Of a stretch of DNA of 33,270 nucleotides, positions 14,604 through 31,311 are shown in pieces. The number at the start of each line of letters is the position of its first letter. The first letter of the stretch is position 1. A program made the position numbers and the translations under genes. The notes beneath the pieces were generated by a model. It searched no databases. It was not told the origin of the DNA and saw only the letters and a list, made by a program, of their open reading frames with translations. Location of the stretch: positions 1 to 33,270 of IMG/VR virus record IMGVR_UViG_3300030101_003463. The stretch is one strand, 5' to 3'. This stretch comes from a virus.

Positions 14604-15227
14604 ATGAAGATAGAAATGCTAGATATAAATAAAATAAAGCCTTACGAGAAGAACCCTAGAAAAAATCAAAATGCAGAGAAGATAGCAAAATCGTTAGAAA
14701 AATATGGCTGGAGACAACCAATCGTTGTTGACAAAGACTATGTAGTCATTGTTGGTCATACAAGATTAATGGGTGCAGAACATCTTAAAATGAAAAAGGT
14801 TCCAGTCCATGTTGCGCATGATATGGCAGAAGAACAGGTTAAAGCATACAGAATAGCAGATAACAGATTATCAGAAGATAGTACATGGGATTACGAATTA
14901 CTTAAATTTGAAATGGATATGTTAAACGATATTGGTTTTGACCTTGATAACTTAGGTTTTGAACAACAAGAATTAGAAACAATAATATTTCAACCAGACC
15001 ATAACTCAAGAGAATGGTTAGACCATGAAGAACATTGGCAAGATATGCCTAGTTTTGACCACGAAGACCAATCGCCATATAAATCACTAACTATAAATTT
15101 TGTTAATAAAGAATCTATGGATAAGTTTTTTCAGTTAATAAAACAAGATTACACAGATAAAACAAAATACATTTGGTACCCAAAAATAGAAAAGAATATA
15201 ATTAAGGATAAAGCCTTTGGCAGTTAA
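14604..15227 (+). CDS. ParB-like nuclease-domain protein, modification-associated type
   Basis: A 207-residue protein. The N-terminal ParB/Srx-like domain has LDINKIKPYEKNPRKN (6-21), KYGWRQPIVVDKD, VIVGHTRLMGAEHL (48-61; the GHTR motif) and the EEQVKAYRIADNRLSE helix. The C-terminal part (about 165-207) has LTINFVNKESMDKFFQLI and TDKTKYIWYP, a separate αβ domain common in phage ParB-like proteins that are not partition proteins. Such proteins act as nucleases or in base-modification systems. The next gene, a glycosyltransferase, overlaps it by 11 bases, so a DNA-modification role is plausible. It lacks a companion ParA. Confidence 0.8.
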   Translation: MKIEMLDINKIKPYEKNPRKNQNAEKIAKSLEKYGWRQPIVVDKDYVVIVGHTRLMGAEHLKMKKVPVHVAHDMAEEQVKAYRIADNRLSEDSTWDYELLKFEMDMLNDIGFDLDNLGFEQQELETIIFQPDHNSREWLDHEEHWQDMPSFDHEDQSPYKSLTINFVNKESMDKFFQLIKQDYTDKTKYIWYPKIEKNIIKDKAFGS

Positions 15228-16104
15228 GCACCAATTCCCCATCTATATACCATCAAAGGGTAGAGCAGATAGTAGATTAACTATCAAGGCATTAGAAGAA
15301 ATGGGTGTATCTTACACAGTAGTTGTTGAAGAACAAGAGTACTCGGAGTATGCGAAGGTGGTGCAGAAAAAGAATATACTCGTGTTAGATAAGACATACC
15401 AAGACGATTACGATACGTGTGACGATTTAGGCGATAGAAAATCTAAGGGACCCGGACCTGCTCGTAATTTTATATGGCAACATTCAATAGATAGAGGTTA
15501 CAAATGGCATTGGGTAATGGACGATAATATAAAATGTTTCAGAAGATGGCAGAATAACCTAGAGATTAAATGTATAGATGGCACACCATTTAAGGTAATG
15601 GAAGATTTTGTATTGAGATATAAAAACATAGGAATGGCAGGACCTAATTATACATTCTTTGTTATAGATAAATGGGCACACCAATATGGACCATTTACAG
15701 TAAATACTAGAATATACTCATGCAATCTAATTAGAAACGATTTACCTTTACCAGATAGATGGAGAGGTAGGTATAACGAAGATACTGATTTGTCTTTACG
15801 AATATTAAAGAAAGGTTGGTGTACAGTACAATTCAATGTTTTTTTACAAGAGAAAGCAAACACACAAACTGTTAAAGGTGGTAATACAGATGAGTTCTAT
15901 GCAGAAGAAGGCACAATACCTAAATCTAATATGCAGATGCGATTACACCCAGATGTTACAAAACTTGTATGGAGATATGGCAGACACCACCATTATGTTA
16001 ACTACAATAAGTTCAAAAGAGAAAACAAATTAATATTTCGTGATGATTTTAAACCTAAAAAAGGTGTAAATAATTACGGATTAAAGTTAAAAAAAGTTGA
16101 ATAA
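15217..16104 (+). CDS. TET-associated-type GT-A glycosyltransferase
   Basis: A 295-residue protein of the TET-associated glycosyltransferase (TAGT) type. FPIYIPSKGRADSRLT (7-22) is the nucleotide-sugar-binding start, GPGPARNFIW (78-87) follows, WVMDDN (99-104) is the metal-binding DxD-like motif, and YNEDTDLSLRILKKG (186-200) carries the catalytic-type Glu-Asp. The family is linked by gene context to sugar addition on modified DNA bases. The start is a TTG preceded by AAGG and overlapping the ParB-like gene; the next ATG would delete the conserved start. Substrate is unknown: no TET/JBP oxygenase or pyrimidine hydroxymethylase is in the window. Confidence 0.8.
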   Translation: MAVKHQFPIYIPSKGRADSRLTIKALEEMGVSYTVVVEEQEYSEYAKVVQKKNILVLDKTYQDDYDTCDDLGDRKSKGPGPARNFIWQHSIDRGYKWHWVMDDNIKCFRRWQNNLEIKCIDGTPFKVMEDFVLRYKNIGMAGPNYTFFVIDKWAHQYGPFTVNTRIYSCNLIRNDLPLPDRWRGRYNEDTDLSLRILKKGWCTVQFNVFLQEKANTQTVKGGNTDEFYAEEGTIPKSNMQMRLHPDVTKLVWRYGRHHHYVNYNKFKRENKLIFRDDFKPKKGVNNYGLKLKKVE

Positions 16105-16133: not shown

Positions 16134-16646
16134 ATGAACGAATTGAAACCCATAAAAAAGGCAAAAACAACCAAGAAAAAGGTTGGTAGACCTAAAATAG
16201 AACTGAATCTTGGCGAATTAGAAAGATTATCCAGATTAAATTGTACTATGCCAGAAATATCAGCTTACTTTGACATACCTTTACGAACTCTTGAAGATAA
16301 ATTTACTAACGAACCAGAGGTTAGAAAGGCAATAGAAAAGGGTAGGGCGACTGGTATGTTGTCTTTAAGACGAAAACAAATACAGATTATGGAAGACACA
16401 AACAATTCAACCATGGCGATTTGGCTAGGTAAACAGATGTTAGGGCAAACAGATAGACAAGAAATACGACAAGATATTAACATTGAAGAAAGAAAGGTGC
16501 TAGACGTAAGCAGATTAAGCGATGATGACCTCAACTATCTTGAAAGAACACTTAAACATGCACTCGTTGACACAGATACGAGCGGAGAAAATGAGAAGGT
16601 CCCTCAAGTTGTTCATAAAAGAGGCATGGACAACAATAGAGCCTAA
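16134..16646 (+). CDS. Small terminase subunit (probable)
   Basis: A 170-residue protein just before the large terminase. A basic start (KKAKTTKKKVGRPKIEL, with an AT-hook-like GRPK) is followed by a helix-turn-helix (ELERLSRLNCTMPEISAYFDIPLRTLEDKF) and a helical oligomerisation region (AIEKGRATGMLSLRRKQIQIMED, STMAIWLGKQMLGQ). This layout is typical of DNA-recognising small terminase subunits. It would bind the packaging site and regulate TerL. Its C-terminus overlaps the large subunit start by 56 bases. Confidence 0.75.
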   Translation: MNELKPIKKAKTTKKKVGRPKIELNLGELERLSRLNCTMPEISAYFDIPLRTLEDKFTNEPEVRKAIEKGRATGMLSLRRKQIQIMEDTNNSTMAIWLGKQMLGQTDRQEIRQDINIEERKVLDVSRLSDDDLNYLERTLKHALVDTDTSGENEKVPQVVHKRGMDNNRA

Positions 16647-18030
16647 TCGTGAATATAACGATAATTGGCATATAGATGCGATATCCGACCATTTACAGGC
16701 TGTTGCCAATGGAGACATCAAAAGATTAATTATAAACGTACCACCAAGACATATGAAGTCTATATCGGTGTCTGTTGCATTACCTGCATGGACATGGACA
16801 AATGACCCTACCAAAAAGTTTTTATATGCTAGTTATGCAGGTTCTTTATCAATTAGAGATAGTGTAAAGTGTAGGCGATTGATTGATAGTCAATGGTATA
16901 AGACAACATTTGGCGATGGTTTCTCGCTAACAACAGACCAAAATCAGAAACAAAGGTTCGAGAACGATAAGACAGGTATGCGAATTGCTACATCTGTAGA
17001 TGGTGCATTAACTGGTGAGGGTGGCGATATTATTGTTATAGATGACCCACACAATGTAAGAGAGGCAGAATCAGGTCTTGTCAGGCAAGGTGTATTAGAT
17101 TGGTGGGACCAAGCAATGCAAACAAGATTGAATGACCCTAAAAATGGTGCATTTATTATAATTATGCAAAGAGTACATGAGAACGATTTAACAGGTCATA
17201 TTTTGGCAAATGAATTTGAAGATTGGGACCATTTATGTTTACCAGCAAGATACGAAACTACGCACCCAACCATTAGTCGTTCTTCATTGGGATTTATTGA
17301 CCCACGAGAAGAAGATGGCGAATTACTATGGCCAGATAGAATAGACGAAAGAACACTAGCAAATCTTGAAAAAAGTTTAGGTTCTTATGGTTCTGCTGGT
17401 CAATTACAACAACGACCAATGCCAAGAGGTGGAGGTATATTAAGGGCAGAATGGTGGAGTGAATGGCAAGAAGAAGATTTGCCAAATATAGAGTACATGA
17501 TACAATCGTACGATACAGCATTTAGTACAAAAGAAAATAGTTCATATAGTGCTAGAACAACATGGGGAGTATTTAAACAAGATGGATATTATAATGCTAT
17601 CGTTATCGATATGTGGTACGATAGGGTTTCTTACCCTGAGTTAAGAGCGATTGCACAAGAGGCATATGAAGATTACGAACCAGATGTTGTGTTGATAGAA
17701 AAGAAAGCAAGTGGTCAAAGTTTGATACAAGATTTAAGAATGGCTGGTATACCAGTTTTAGAATATTCGCCAGATAGAGATAAGCAGGCTAGGGCACACG
17801 CAAGTTCTGCCTTGCTAGAAGATGGTAGAATATGGTACCCTGCAGGTAAGAGATGGGCAAAAGATTTAATAGATATATGTTCTGCCTTTCCAACTGGTAA
17901 CAATGATGATATAGTAGATACATGCACTCAAGCATGGTTAAGATTAAGAAAAGGTTGGTTTATAACACATTCAAGCGACGCAGAAGATGATGACGTTGAA
18001 GAACAGAAGAGGTTAACATTATATGGCTAG
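16591..18030 (+). CDS. terL: Terminase large subunit
   Basis: A 479-residue packaging motor. The ATPase domain has a Walker A-type PPRHMKS (51-57) and Walker B IIVIDDP (147-153). The RNaseH-like nuclease has Asp308 (QSYDTAF), Glu370 (VVLIEKK) and the Asp pair in NNDDIVD (437-443). It packs DNA into the prohead through the portal and cuts concatemers. I chose the ATG at 16591, preceded by GCGGAG, over the upstream in-frame ATG at 16522. The extra residues do not look conserved and the family usually starts near this point. Its end overlaps the portal start by 8 bases. Confidence 0.92.
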   Translation: MRRSLKLFIKEAWTTIEPNREYNDNWHIDAISDHLQAVANGDIKRLIINVPPRHMKSISVSVALPAWTWTNDPTKKFLYASYAGSLSIRDSVKCRRLIDSQWYKTTFGDGFSLTTDQNQKQRFENDKTGMRIATSVDGALTGEGGDIIVIDDPHNVREAESGLVRQGVLDWWDQAMQTRLNDPKNGAFIIIMQRVHENDLTGHILANEFEDWDHLCLPARYETTHPTISRSSLGFIDPREEDGELLWPDRIDERTLANLEKSLGSYGSAGQLQQRPMPRGGGILRAEWWSEWQEEDLPNIEYMIQSYDTAFSTKENSSYSARTTWGVFKQDGYYNAIVIDMWYDRVSYPELRAIAQEAYEDYEPDVVLIEKKASGQSLIQDLRMAGIPVLEYSPDRDKQARAHASSALLEDGRIWYPAGKRWAKDLIDICSAFPTGNNDDIVDTCTQAWLRLRKGWFITHSSDAEDDDVEEQKRLTLYG

Positions 18031-24332: not shown

Positions 24333-25112
24333 ATGTCAAAAACACGTATATTAATGAAAGCATTAGGTAAGGCATTAGAAAAAGTACCAGAAAAGATAGG
24401 TTCTTTGCCATCAGAAGAAGAACTTAAAAAACAAGGTTTTGACCCTAGAACATTTTATCACATGACAAGAGAAGATATAACAAGTTTTGACCCAAATGCA
24501 CCTGCCGATTTAGGAGTTGGACCAAAACAGATGGAAGATTGGCAGTACGATGGTTTTGAGGGAACAAGAGGTGCAACATATTTTACTTCATCAAAAGACT
24601 ACCTAGAAGAAATTTTTGATGCAATGAGTGATGCTGATACTAAGAAAGGTATAACAGGTCTTCGTTCTATGCCAGTAAAATTAAAATTAAGAAATATATT
24701 CTTACCAAGAAATAAAGAACATATTGCAATGCTTAGAAATGCCATTGAAAAAAGTTCTCCAGAAGATAGAAAAATATTTAATTACTTTAAAGATAAACAA
24801 TTAGAATTACGAGACGAGTATACTGATGATGATTTTTTCATAGAAATGTCAAATTATCAAATGCCATACACTTTAGAAAACCCAATAGTAATTAAAAAAA
24901 TGAAAGAATTGGGATTTACAGGTTATAGTGGAGACCCTTATGCACCGGGAACTATTGCATTATTTAGTCCAGAGAAAGGTGATGTTAGAAGTGTATTTGC
25001 TAAATTTGACCCAGATAAGGTAGAAGATGGTAATATTCTTGCATCTATTGTACCACCAGTTACAACTGCAGTAGGTGTTGGTGCGTTGGCAGGATTAGAA
25101 GAAAGTACATAA
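24333..25112 (+). CDS. ADP-ribosyltransferase-like protein (ART-PolyVal type)
   Basis: A 259-residue protein. FYHMTREDITSFDP (41-54) matches the NAD-binding first strand of ART domains, with His43. RGATYFTSSKDYLEEIF (79-95) is the second motif. GFTGYSGDPYAPGTIALFSPEKGDVRSVFAKFDPDK (194-229) is the usual end, with the RS..A.FDP signature seen in phage polyvalent ARTs. I cannot place the catalytic glutamate with confidence. The start MSKTRILMKALGKALE and a hydrophobic C-terminus (ILASIVPPVTTAVGVGALAG) flank the domain. It may be packaged and act early on host proteins, as T4 Alt does; this is inferred from type and location. Confidence 0.72.
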   Translation: MSKTRILMKALGKALEKVPEKIGSLPSEEELKKQGFDPRTFYHMTREDITSFDPNAPADLGVGPKQMEDWQYDGFEGTRGATYFTSSKDYLEEIFDAMSDADTKKGITGLRSMPVKLKLRNIFLPRNKEHIAMLRNAIEKSSPEDRKIFNYFKDKQLELRDEYTDDDFFIEMSNYQMPYTLENPIVIKKMKELGFTGYSGDPYAPGTIALFSPEKGDVRSVFAKFDPDKVEDGNILASIVPPVTTAVGVGALAGLEEST

Positions 25113-27979
25113 TGTCTAAGATATTTAAATTATTTAAATTTGGTACACTTGGAGCATTAGATGAATTAGGTATGTTCTCGCCTACAGAAAAGGCAATAGA
25201 TTTACTTGGTCAAGATAAATTTGTTGCTGAAGATTTATTAAGATTAGACCCAAAAGCAACATCAGGAACAGCAGGTTTATTATCTAAATTTGGAAAACCT
25301 GTGCAAGAAGAAATGATTTTTACAGGTCTTGAAGATAAAATACTTGGTTTACCAAAGGGAGAAAAAATTACATCACAAGAATTAAAAGACTATTTGGTAG
25401 ACAATAAAACAAGAGTAAATGAAATAATTAAAAGTGATAAAGTAGTTAACAAAGAAATAAATTATGAACCATTTGAATTATCTGTAATTGAACCTGTTGG
25501 GCCGGGTAGAGGTAGATATGGCGTACAAAGTTTTTTGAATGATATAGATGATGGTGTACCATCAGCATTAGAAGCATTTGCAGAATTAGATGTAGATTCA
25601 TCAGGTACTGGTGCGACTAGACTTGGTACTTTTAAAAATCCGTTTATTAATAAAATAAATTTTGAAGATTTGAGCACACAATTTCAAACAGAAGTATTAA
25701 CACCTGTTGTAACTCAAGCCAGACAAGAAGGTTTATTAGACCCAGATGATTTTGCCATGGCATCATTAGGTCCAGATGTAGAAAATATAGTGAAGTTTGA
25801 ATTTTCACCATCATTAGATGCTGACAAAGATATTGTTTATAGAATACAAGGTAATAATACAATTGGTTATGAGGTTATAGCTAGAAAAAAAGGCGCTGAT
25901 GCAAATATGTTTGTTAGTCCTGTAAAACCTAGTTTTAATGAGGCAAAAGTAACGCTAGATGGATATAGAAGAAAGATAAATAAGGTAGATGATGAAAGTT
26001 TAATGCCAATGCATGAGCAATATACATTGCCGGGTGGAACAAACTATCAAGAGATAATACTTACAATGCCTGAACCTATCGATAATGTTGCATCTATTGC
26101 AGGTAAATATGATGATTTAGTAAAAAAAGATAAATTTGGTACTATAATTAATTTAAATGCAATTACTGGCGATAATACTGACATTACATTAAGTCCGCAA
26201 ATGTTAAGAATACTAAATGATGGAAAGGTTTTAGATTTAGGTATTGATAGAAACATAAGGTTAAATAAAGATACAGGTGATATTGAGGTACTCAAACAAG
26301 ATTATGAAAACTTTTCACATACAGCCGATGAAAAAAATGTTGTTGTATTCACAAGAACAAAAGACAGAGTTGATGAAGATGGTAGAAAGATATTGTATGT
26401 AGAAGAAATACAATCAGATATGTCGCAACAGGGCAGAAGAAGAGGTCTTGTTATGGGGCAAAAAGAGAAAAAGGCATTCATAAATAGATATAATAATAAA
26501 ATTTTTGGTGATGTTTTAGATTCTATTGATGCATTAAAAGATAAAACAAACATTGCTGATTTGAGAGGTGCAAGAATGTCAGGAACAACATACGATGACT
26601 CTTCAATAAGAAGATTGCAACCATCTTTTCAAGACGTTGATTTTAAAGATACTTTTGCTAACTTACCAAATGTTGATTATGAAAGTGCGCATAGTTTTGA
26701 AGATATAGTTAAAAAACAAATGACTAAATATAAATTTAACGAACTTAAAGATAATAAAGTTAAGATATTTACCAATAGAGGTATAGATAAAAAAAGTGCT
26801 CAAAAATTAAATATTGAGGCATTAACAGATAATTTAAAAATACCAGAAAATTTATACAATGATGTTACAGATTATGTTGATATGAGTAAATTTAAAGAAA
26901 AGATTGATGCGATTGAAACTGTTTTAGCAAATAAAATATATACAAAAGAATTTAACAAAAGACCTGACATGAGTTCTGTTGCAGGTAAAGCAGAATTTGA
27001 TAAATTACAGGCATTTAATAGAGATATGTTAAAAAGATTTATGGGCGAGAAAGAATTTAATAATTTTATGAAAAAAGAAACCAAAGATATTATTGAACAG
27101 GTTGTAAATGATAATATTGCAGAAATAACTATACCAGATAATGTTACAGACCTTTTTGAATATTATAATTCTATTGACGATACAGATATTATTTCTACAC
27201 CATTTGACGGACAAATGACAAAATTAGAATTTGATGAAAAATATTTAAATCCAAAGATAAATGCTTTGGTTGAAAACAGATTACAGGTACATGCAACTGT
27301 TACTGACTCAACGAGTAATCGTGCAATAGGTTTTGATTATCCAGAAGATGCTCTTGATGAGGTGTACGATAAAATAAAAGATTTACAAACAAATCTGGGA
27401 AATGCTGTAAGATACGATGTAAAATTAAGACCTGTAGGTAATATACCATCAGCACCGTTTATTGGTTCTTCTGAAAGGTTTACTGAATTAGCAATTAAAA
27501 GACTATTAAAACACGCGAAAGACAATGATTACGATGGTGTTGCGTTTTCTTCTGGTAAAATTCACGATAAAAGATGGAACCAACCTAATTTAACTCAATA
27601 TTATGATGTTGTTATTCCAAAGGTTGCCAAAAATTTATTGAAAGGTACTGATGCAAAACTTGAATATACTGATATATGGTTAGACCAAAATTCTTTAGAC
27701 GAAGCAACAGATATGATTCGTGTAGGCGGAAGATACGATTATTTTGATAGAGATGTACTAAATGAACTTGACCAAACACCTGCATTAATAGGACATAATG
27801 ATGGTTTTCGAGGATATATTGGCGATACACCAACAATATATTTAACAGATGATGTAAAAGAAAATATTGATTCTGGCATATCCTTATATTCTCCAATAAT
27901 CGCCACAGGTATTGCAGGTACAGTTGCAAATAAAATGATAGGCAGTGAAGAAGATATAATAAGAGACGAGGGAATATAA
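25112..27979 (+). CDS. Large polyvalent-type virion protein
   Basis: A 955-residue protein. Residues 310-450 hold a domain with YEEIILTMP-type strands (YQEIILTMPEP) and a GRKILYVEEIQSDMSQQGRRRG block (EIQSD at 432-436). Near the C-terminus PFIGSSERFTELAIKRLLKHA (782-802) and DYDGVAFSSGKIHDKRW follow. These EIQSDxxQ and PFxGS..F.ELAIKRLL..A....YDGVAF..G blocks recur in phage polyvalent proteins that are delivered with DNA; their activity is unknown. The N-terminus shares the MSKxxKL motif with two neighbours, and a hydrophobic segment (SPIIATGIAGTVANKMIG) lies near the end. No methyltransferase, helicase or peptidase domain, unlike larger relatives. Confidence 0.7.
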   Translation: MSKIFKLFKFGTLGALDELGMFSPTEKAIDLLGQDKFVAEDLLRLDPKATSGTAGLLSKFGKPVQEEMIFTGLEDKILGLPKGEKITSQELKDYLVDNKTRVNEIIKSDKVVNKEINYEPFELSVIEPVGPGRGRYGVQSFLNDIDDGVPSALEAFAELDVDSSGTGATRLGTFKNPFINKINFEDLSTQFQTEVLTPVVTQARQEGLLDPDDFAMASLGPDVENIVKFEFSPSLDADKDIVYRIQGNNTIGYEVIARKKGADANMFVSPVKPSFNEAKVTLDGYRRKINKVDDESLMPMHEQYTLPGGTNYQEIILTMPEPIDNVASIAGKYDDLVKKDKFGTIINLNAITGDNTDITLSPQMLRILNDGKVLDLGIDRNIRLNKDTGDIEVLKQDYENFSHTADEKNVVVFTRTKDRVDEDGRKILYVEEIQSDMSQQGRRRGLVMGQKEKKAFINRYNNKIFGDVLDSIDALKDKTNIADLRGARMSGTTYDDSSIRRLQPSFQDVDFKDTFANLPNVDYESAHSFEDIVKKQMTKYKFNELKDNKVKIFTNRGIDKKSAQKLNIEALTDNLKIPENLYNDVTDYVDMSKFKEKIDAIETVLANKIYTKEFNKRPDMSSVAGKAEFDKLQAFNRDMLKRFMGEKEFNNFMKKETKDIIEQVVNDNIAEITIPDNVTDLFEYYNSIDDTDIISTPFDGQMTKLEFDEKYLNPKINALVENRLQVHATVTDSTSNRAIGFDYPEDALDEVYDKIKDLQTNLGNAVRYDVKLRPVGNIPSAPFIGSSERFTELAIKRLLKHAKDNDYDGVAFSSGKIHDKRWNQPNLTQYYDVVIPKVAKNLLKGTDAKLEYTDIWLDQNSLDEATDMIRVGGRYDYFDRDVLNELDQTPALIGHNDGFRGYIGDTPTIYLTDDVKENIDSGISLYSPIIATGIAGTVANKMIGSEEDIIRDEGI

Positions 27980-30778: not shown

Positions 30779-30905
30779 TATGGTTGATGGACGAATGTCC
30801 GATTTTCAATCATATCAAAAAAATGTCGGTATTGCTCAAGGTATAGAAGAATCTTGTGAAATAATTGACGAAACCTTAAAACAAATAAATATAGGAGATG
30901 AATAA
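30708..30905 (+). CDS. Small helical protein before GroES
   Basis: A 65-residue coiled-coil-like protein: MNTTDLLNQIKKNLQKKKAEIANNMVDGRMSDFQSYQKNVGIAQGIEESCEIIDETLKQINIGDE. The DGRMSDFxSYQxxVGxAQGIEES...ILxETL block has the regular pattern of a conserved small phage protein, and I recall similar ones in structural regions without annotation. If its start at 30708 is right, it overlaps the acidic-peptide gene; an in-frame ATG at 30780 avoids the overlap but removes the first helix. Confidence 0.55.
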   Translation: MNTTDLLNQIKKNLQKKKAEIANNMVDGRMSDFQSYQKNVGIAQGIEESCEIIDETLKQINIGDE

Positions 30906-30906
30906 C

Positions 30907-31311
30907 GTGACTCATCAACACGGAGATAAAATTTATGCAGATAGTTTGTCTAAGGCAACTATTGCATCACATCAACTTCCAAAGCCTCTAAACTGGAAGA
31001 TACTAATTCAACCAGCAGAAATTTCTACAGAGACCAAAGGTGGTATTATATTACCAGAAACTGCTAAAGATAATCAGCAAATTCTAACTGCACATGGTCA
31101 TGTTGTTGCTATTGGTGAATTAGCCTACCGAGATAGAGACACAGGAGCTAAGTGGAGACAAGAAACAACACCTAAAGTCGGCGATTTTGTTACGTTTGGC
31201 AAATATGCTGGTCAAAAGATTGTTGTTAATAACGTACGGTTTATTTTACTAAATGATGACGAGATTACATCAATCTTGCCTGAGGGAGTAAAAGTAACCG
31301 CTTATATTTAA
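30907..31311 (+). CDS. groES: Phage GroES co-chaperonin (Cpn10)
   Basis: A 134-residue Cpn10-fold protein: PKPLNWKILIQPAEISTETKGGIILPETAKDN (mobile-loop region included), HGHVVAIGELAY, KVGDFVTFGKYAGQKIVVNNVRFILLNDDEITSIL. It should cap the host GroEL so that it folds capsid or other large phage proteins, as T4 gp31 does. I take the GTG at 30907, 9 bases after AGGAG (30893-30897), over the ATG at 30898 which lies directly on that site. An N-terminal extension of about 27 residues (THQHGDKIYADSL...) is unlike bacterial GroES. Directly followed by the scaffold-like gene. Confidence 0.85.
   Translation: MTHQHGDKIYADSLSKATIASHQLPKPLNWKILIQPAEISTETKGGIILPETAKDNQQILTAHGHVVAIGELAYRDRDTGAKWRQETTPKVGDFVTFGKYAGQKIVVNNVRFILLNDDEITSILPEGVKVTAYI

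Follow-up and report, generated by a model that had tools for sequence, protein, structure and literature searches.

Overlapping virus genes for a ParB_N-headed adaptor and a TAGT glycosyltransferase: a candidate two-subunit enzyme for putting sugar on phage DNA

The window analysed here is a whole IMG/VR record, a stretch of 33,270 bases classed as 'linear'. The relative G001 (51.2 kb) is probably nearly complete, because both ends of its contig map to one point in the gene order of the window, and comparison with it suggests a genome of about 51 kb, of which the window covers 33.3 kb and about 18 kb are missing. A primase/helicase lies 5′ of the ParB-TAGT gene pair studied here and both terminase subunits lie 3′ of it. 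The features of the locus are the following.

14604..15227, + strand: ParB_N-headed TAGT adaptor protein, 207 aa, ATG start (Pfam ParB_N; phrog_620), 5′ of the TAGT gene in 75/75 assessable group-1 loci
14607..14858, + strand: ParB_N domain, aa 2-85 (Pfam), with GHTR at aa 51-54 and DN at aa 86-87 just beyond
15006..15203, + strand: putative adaptor domain (approximately aa 135-200) with homology to the N-terminal domain found in full-length TAGTs (hhalign, tblastn)
15204..15208, + strand: Shine-Dalgarno-like purine-rich AAGGA, 8 nt 5′ of the TTG (sequence)
15217..15227, + strand: 11-base overlap read in both frames (ORF coordinates); the overlap is conserved
15217..16104, + strand: TAGT glycosyltransferase, 295 aa, TTG start, predicted GT-A fold, DDN at aa 102-104 and NED at aa 187-189 (PF20691, AF2)
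16134..16646, + strand: probable terminase small subunit, the final gene of the conserved cassette (phrog_309, 0.0019; homologue in 78/81 group-1 loci)
16522..18030, + strand: terminase large subunit, 74% identical to TerL of Roseobacter phages CRP-901/902

Both open reading frames of the sequence-only reading, a ParB-like gene overlapping a TTG-started TAGT gene by 11 bases, are thus present. In Pfam the first product reached ParB_N (2.3e-7, 31.2 bits against a cut-off of 26.3) and the second matched PF20691 over the entire profile (8.8e-43, 147 bits against a cut-off of 27.5, positions 1-205 of 205), which bears out the assignment of the glycosyltransferase to the TAGT family. The PHROG matches were ParB-like for the former (phrog_620, 6e-48) and beta-glucosyl-HMC-alpha-glucosyltransferase for the latter (5e-47). 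Compared with ParABS, the window protein has the ParB_N domain and lacks the central HTH parS-binding domain, ParB_N being the only domain to reach the Pfam cut-off; NCBIfam ParB models scored far below cut-off, and no ParA gene was found among the window proteins scanned, which were part of the ORFs.

Elsewhere in the window, 30898-31311 encodes a GroES-like co-chaperonin within the structural module, and its CRP-901 counterpart is annotated GroES. Two large adjacent proteins (24333-25112 and 25112-27979) have diverged quickly among closely related phages and are perhaps injected virion proteins; one of them weakly matches an ADP-ribosyltransferase (ART-PolyVal, E 0.024). Between 2372 and 19146 the strain G009 matches the window at 99.96% identity, and left of 2372 the two sequences differ. 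ORF 134-2374 is a variable gene, given that G007 encodes a 62% homologue of it and G001 has none. In G001 a 258-residue ORF that is not in the window (L112:10524-11300; phrog_7084, unknown function) lies between the helicase and ParB genes.

Loci were picked by TAGT similarity, as non-independent samples, and surveyed by ORF calling and home-made profiles. Group 1 comprised 81 window-like loci (80 related ones and the window), 75 of them assessable. A ParB_N protein was encoded 5′ of the TAGT in all 75 and was immediately adjacent in 68. The reading frames overlapped at 74 of 75 adjacent junctions, most commonly by 11 or 14 bases, and a probable terminase small subunit followed the TAGT in 78 of the 81 loci. 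The overlap phase was constant (2 mod 3 in 68/68 group-1 pairs and in 64/71 of group 2, the second TAGT subgroup described below). Despite this constant frame we do not claim a programmed frameshift, since short overlaps of that phase are common, and no fusion of ParB and TAGT within one ORF occurred across the survey. A look at the neighbours of the pair in related phages had been proposed from the sequence; the usual neighbour proved to be the terminase, and not solely capsid or surface-sugar genes. On contig G008 the TAGT and ParB are 89% and 66% identical to their window counterparts, but only 8 of its 40 genes have window homologues, and its large terminase and portal have none; therefore the cassette moves between genomes. 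Roseobacter phages CRP-901/902 were not among the matches listed by a TAGT search of GenBank phages, and neither a ParB nor a TAGT gene is annotated in CRP-901.

A second TAGT subgroup, about 22% identical to the window TAGT (range about 16-25%), repeats the ParB-TAGT layout, usually beside the terminase, in phages of Lactobacillus, E. coli (Rac-type prophages), Porphyromonas and Nocardia and in an archaeal virus. Lactobacillus phage jlb1 encodes ParB, an 11-base overlap, TAGT (PF20691, 1e-32) and then both terminases, an order found also in L. delbrueckii phage c5, Escherichia 613R10, Porphyromonas phage005b and Nocardia NTR1. The order ParB, TAGT is kept in the archaeal (Haloarcula) virus HHTV-2, where some small genes precede the large terminase, while in Gordonia Lilbeanie the pair is present and no terminase lies within the 3.5 kb viewed on each side. 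At least 557 IMG/VR stretches encode second-subgroup relatives, and GTDB prophages with such TAGTs (41 loci scored) come from Firmicutes, Bacteroidota, Proteobacteria, Spirochaetes and others. The overlap is kept, and unrelated phages share the order ParB, TAGT, terminase; the pairing is not due to chance. No description of it was found in the literature searched, the scope of which stopped short of the key 2013 TAGT paper.

A Rac-type prophage locus corresponds to the 613R10 cassette, with at least 80% of it present in 885 of 5,426 complete E. coli genomes. Its ParB gene is ynaK, which in NZ_CP033884 is an intact 263-residue ORF (L327:6959-7750) overlapping the TAGT gene. Despite this, RefSeq labels it incomplete, 'missing C-terminus', and the short K-12 version of ynaK seems to have been used as the reference. 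K-12 itself retains only a ynaK fragment and has the TAGT deleted; YdaY was considered as a TAGT remnant and dismissed, since similarity was absent.

Full-length TAGTs (of phages such as Aeh1, POP12, PTm1, Kuja and 1.124.O) are longer at the N-terminus by a domain of roughly 100 residues or more. In hhalign the window ParB aligned with this domain through its C-terminal part (Prob 99.1, E 1.3e-18), whereas the ParB_N half gave E 0.4 and reversed sequences gave 0.13. Searched alone by tblastn against 50,697 phage records, the window adaptor retrieved only N-terminal parts of TAGT genes, in 12 records. The C-terminal domain of the jlb1 ParB, also queried alone, matched 28 phage records, all within the 36 with that TAGT type. 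Moreover, in Vibrio phage SRILMA the second-subgroup adaptor is a separate 139-residue gene directly 5′ of the TAGT and without ParB_N, and it is also standalone in large Vibrio phages. Judged by sequence similarity, the C-terminal half of each "ParB" is a putative TAGT-partner domain, a point that is new here, subject to the 2013 TAGT paper. The "ParB" would therefore be a ParB_N head on a TAGT adaptor, and a two-subunit enzyme is probable. The pair of 'ParB plus glycosyltransferase' proposed earlier is accordingly real, strictly conserved and overlapping, but its ParB half needs redefinition, the C-terminal half of that gene being itself a TAGT component. In the full-length TAGTs (those of Aeh1, POP12, PTm1 and Kuja and of Vibrio 1.076.O and 1.124.O), whose catalytic domain is about 50% identical to that of the window, the adaptor is fused to the N-terminus of the glycosyltransferase itself and there is no ParB_N, whereas in the window it is carried by the ParB_N protein.

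An adaptor adjoined or lay near the TAGT in 75/75 assessable loci of group 1, in 73/75 of the second subgroup in IMG/VR (45 ParB-headed, 20 with the adaptor alone, 8 with an adaptor nearby and 2 with none) and in 38/41 from GTDB, and the frames overlapped at nearly all adjacent adaptor-TAGT junctions. TAGT distances tracked those of the adaptor more closely than those of the ParB_N head, with Mantel r of 0.89 versus 0.77 in group 1 and 0.16 versus 0.10 in group 2. The adaptors of the two subgroups could not be treated as one domain, as hhalign gave no match between them; therefore the two TAGT subgroups appear to have gained their ParB_N heads independently, each by way of an adaptor of its own. 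Some loci have other arrangements. Tandem TAGT arrays, of five copies in L251, three in L323 and two in Vibrio phage Kuja (L141:4581-7269), suggest stepwise building of a sugar chain. Five loci (L204, L205, L229, L238 and L240) encode a protein of 765-822 residues directly 5′ of the TAGT, with a standalone adaptor nearby; by its sequence this protein resembles DNA polymerases of family A, a hint of a link with replication.

The ParB_N head is found on, or beside, enzymes that modify DNA. Residues 1-130 of the window ParB matched a model for Type II methyltransferases in its N-terminal part (PADLOC MTase_II, 7e-29), and the head is common to DNA methyltransferases (phrog_498). The slot before the terminase that holds ParB-TAGT in jlb1 is taken in Lactobacillus Lj771 by a methyltransferase with a ParB_N match ahead of it. 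Thus the methyltransferases of phrog_498, Lj771 and Javan254 share the head, and in Lactobacillus phages the slot, with the pair, but there the enzyme is a methyltransferase usually fused to the head, whereas the window enzyme is a glycosyltransferase encoded by a separate gene. Furthermore, in HTVC112P-like pelagiphages the gene of the ParB_N head overlaps that of a TET/JBP oxygenase (PF12851, 1.1e-29) at 29/29 assessable loci. The layout of Pelagibacter phage HTVC112P resembles that of the window pair in that the ParB_N gene overlaps the gene of a DNA-base enzyme; it differs in having an oxygenase in place of the glycosyltransferase, a different ParB C-terminus and no TAGT nearby. The GHxR motif is present in 75/75 group-1 and 29/29 TET-linked ParBs. 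Taken together, the methyltransferases and the TET/JBP loci uphold the earlier suggestion that this ParB-like type is tied to DNA modification. A ParB/Srx-fold NTPase domain also occurs in GmrS, part of the type IV restriction enzyme GmrSD that cuts glucosyl-hmC DNA (PMC4619093). GmrSD likewise deals with glucosylated DNA, but it is a host nuclease, opposite in role to the ParB-TAGT pair.

An AF2 model of the window TAGT, built from a 71-sequence alignment (pLDDT 86), matched GT-A enzymes, the best being GalNAc-T2 (Z 14.4, rmsd 4.3, 223 aligned). In addition it matched viral TAGT-domain models (TM up to 0.85) and the beta-glucosyl-HMC-alpha-glucosyltransferase of a Klebsiella phage (TM about 0.6); a sequence and profile search of the PDB returned no relative. 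Across the 71 TAGTs, D103, N187 and D189 are invariant and D102 is at least 90% conserved. The TAGT is thus predicted to be a GT-A glycosyltransferase with conserved acidic metal/base motifs (DxD, NED). The T2/T6 TAGT, which acts on glucosylated DNA (PMC13390438) and adds a second glucose to glucosyl-hmC DNA (PMC13216743), is likewise phage-borne and shares PF20691 and the predicted GT-A fold. T-even TAGTs are too distant from that of the window for tblastn at 1e-5, and the window enzyme, in contrast, is paired with a ParB_N-headed adaptor and has relatives in which no hydroxymethylase was found.

The ParB name and the terminase neighbourhood would also fit a packaging or partition device in which the glycosyltransferase is incidental or inactive. 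We regard this as very improbable: the DD and NED motifs are conserved, only ParB_N is detected and the remainder of the protein appears to be TAGT adaptor, and in Pectobacterium, Aeromonas and Vibrio phages the TAGT is located away from the terminase.

On balance we think it probable, if not strongly so, that the ParB_N-adaptor and the TAGT form one two-subunit enzyme that puts sugar on phage DNA and protects it from restriction. One subunit would consist of the ParB_N domain, of an NTP-dependent, DNA-associated type, joined to the adaptor; the other would be the catalytic TAGT. Translation coupled through the overlap may match the amounts of the two. The adaptor would hold the glycosyltransferase and the head would deliver it to the phage DNA; there a host nucleotide-sugar would donate the sugar for transfer to a hydroxyl, late in infection or at packaging, and the sugar would then protect against restriction. 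DNA is our best inference for the substrate, because the head is also carried by DNA methyltransferases that occupy the same slot and adjoins TET/JBP in pelagiphages, because the characterised TAGT adds glucose to glucosyl-hmC DNA (PMC13216743), and because GmrS of the enzyme that cuts such DNA has the ParB/Srx fold (PMC4619093). As counterpoints, no base-hydroxylating enzyme could be recognised in near-complete relatives or small complete isolates, the position near the terminase may stem from a role in packaging or from late expression in common, and a GT-A fold, with GalNAc-T2 as its top match, equally fits protein acceptors.

The pair might instead glycosylate a protein (such as a terminase subunit, capsid or tail protein), possibly after hydroxylation by phage P4H-type 2OG oxygenases. 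In favour of this, the pair mostly adjoins terminase genes, window relatives have P4H-type PF13640 oxygenases encoded within or close to the tail region, and protein glycosyltransferases are among the best fold matches. We nevertheless consider it clearly unlikely: small isolates with the pair have no PF13640, the neighbouring terminase families differ widely, the ParB_N head otherwise joins DNA-modifying enzymes, and TAGT relatives in large phages lie among replication or nucleotide-metabolism genes.

If DNA is the substrate of the two-subunit enzyme, an acceptor is needed. The sequence-only reading rightly noted no oxygenase or hydroxymethylase within the window: PF12851, PF13640 and PF00303 (thymidylate-synthase-type hydroxymethylase) all lack a match in this 33.3-kb fragment. 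Its further idea, that a partner of the TET/JBP or dCMP-hydroxymethylase type might be encoded outside the window, found no support in near-complete relatives (G001-G003) or small complete isolates. PF12851 was absent from 19 related records, from G001-G003 and from jlb1, c5, HHTV-2, 613R10, NTR1, Lilbeanie, phage005b and SRILMA, while the positive control HTVC112P matched. PF00303 was absent from 14 related records and from the small isolates; it is present in Kuja, PTm1, henriette, Aeh1, POP12 and SRILMA. Among phages with full-length TAGTs the large ones carry it, and the small partial Vibrio records 1.076.O and 1.124.O do not. An association of PF00303 absence with the ParB head (p = 0.007) was set aside as confounded with genome size, and partial genomes were involved (one on the ParB side, two on the other). 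PF13640 genes occur far from the pair in G001-G004 and G009, and are absent from small isolates carrying the pair; the two in G009, which shares 16.8 kb with the window, lie about 24 kb from the TAGT, past the point where the two sequences part. The usual acceptor, hmC or hmU, thus has no known source in these genomes, which leaves an unrecognised hydroxylase or a different acceptor.

An unrecognised phage (P4H-type, HxD...H) or host hydroxylase supplying hydroxymethylated bases would be a narrower form of the two-subunit DNA enzyme, and we treat it as a real but lesser possibility. It would agree with the known acceptor chemistry of TAGTs, with PF00303 in most large TAGT phages and with the two PF13640 genes of G009, a strain otherwise nearly identical to the window. 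Furthermore, the ParB and TAGT genes of L008 and L009 are separated by an ORF of 180 aa in which an HxD...H pattern is invariant. Few loci have this ORF, however, and it is not accepted as a 2OG oxygenase: Pfam, PDB profiles and hhalign gave no support beyond the motif, and the AF2 model from a two-sequence alignment reached a pLDDT of 39. Against the hydroxylase also stand the isolates jlb1, c5, HHTV-2, NTR1, Lilbeanie and phage005b, which have none of the three families. PHROG labels the intervening ORF 'ferrochelatase'. The same invariant HxD...H pattern occurs in marine phage 'ferrochelatase' proteins (phrog_2954-type; L332:7-777, L333:173-742), for which that label seems doubtful.

It might also be that the ParB_N-headed TAGT glycosylates phage DNA without a dedicated base hydroxylase, at an unmodified base atom or at sites picked by the ParB_N clamp. 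We rate this as rather unlikely; if true, it would be a new kind of DNA modification across viruses of bacteria and archaea. The pair poses a testable question, namely what the enzyme targets where a hydroxymethylase is absent, and it can serve as a model of the way in which DNA-modifying enzymes may be guided by ParB_N heads. Such pairs are candidates for evasion of restriction and CRISPR and, if they modify DNA, sugar on DNA would be far more widespread than the T-even phages suggest.
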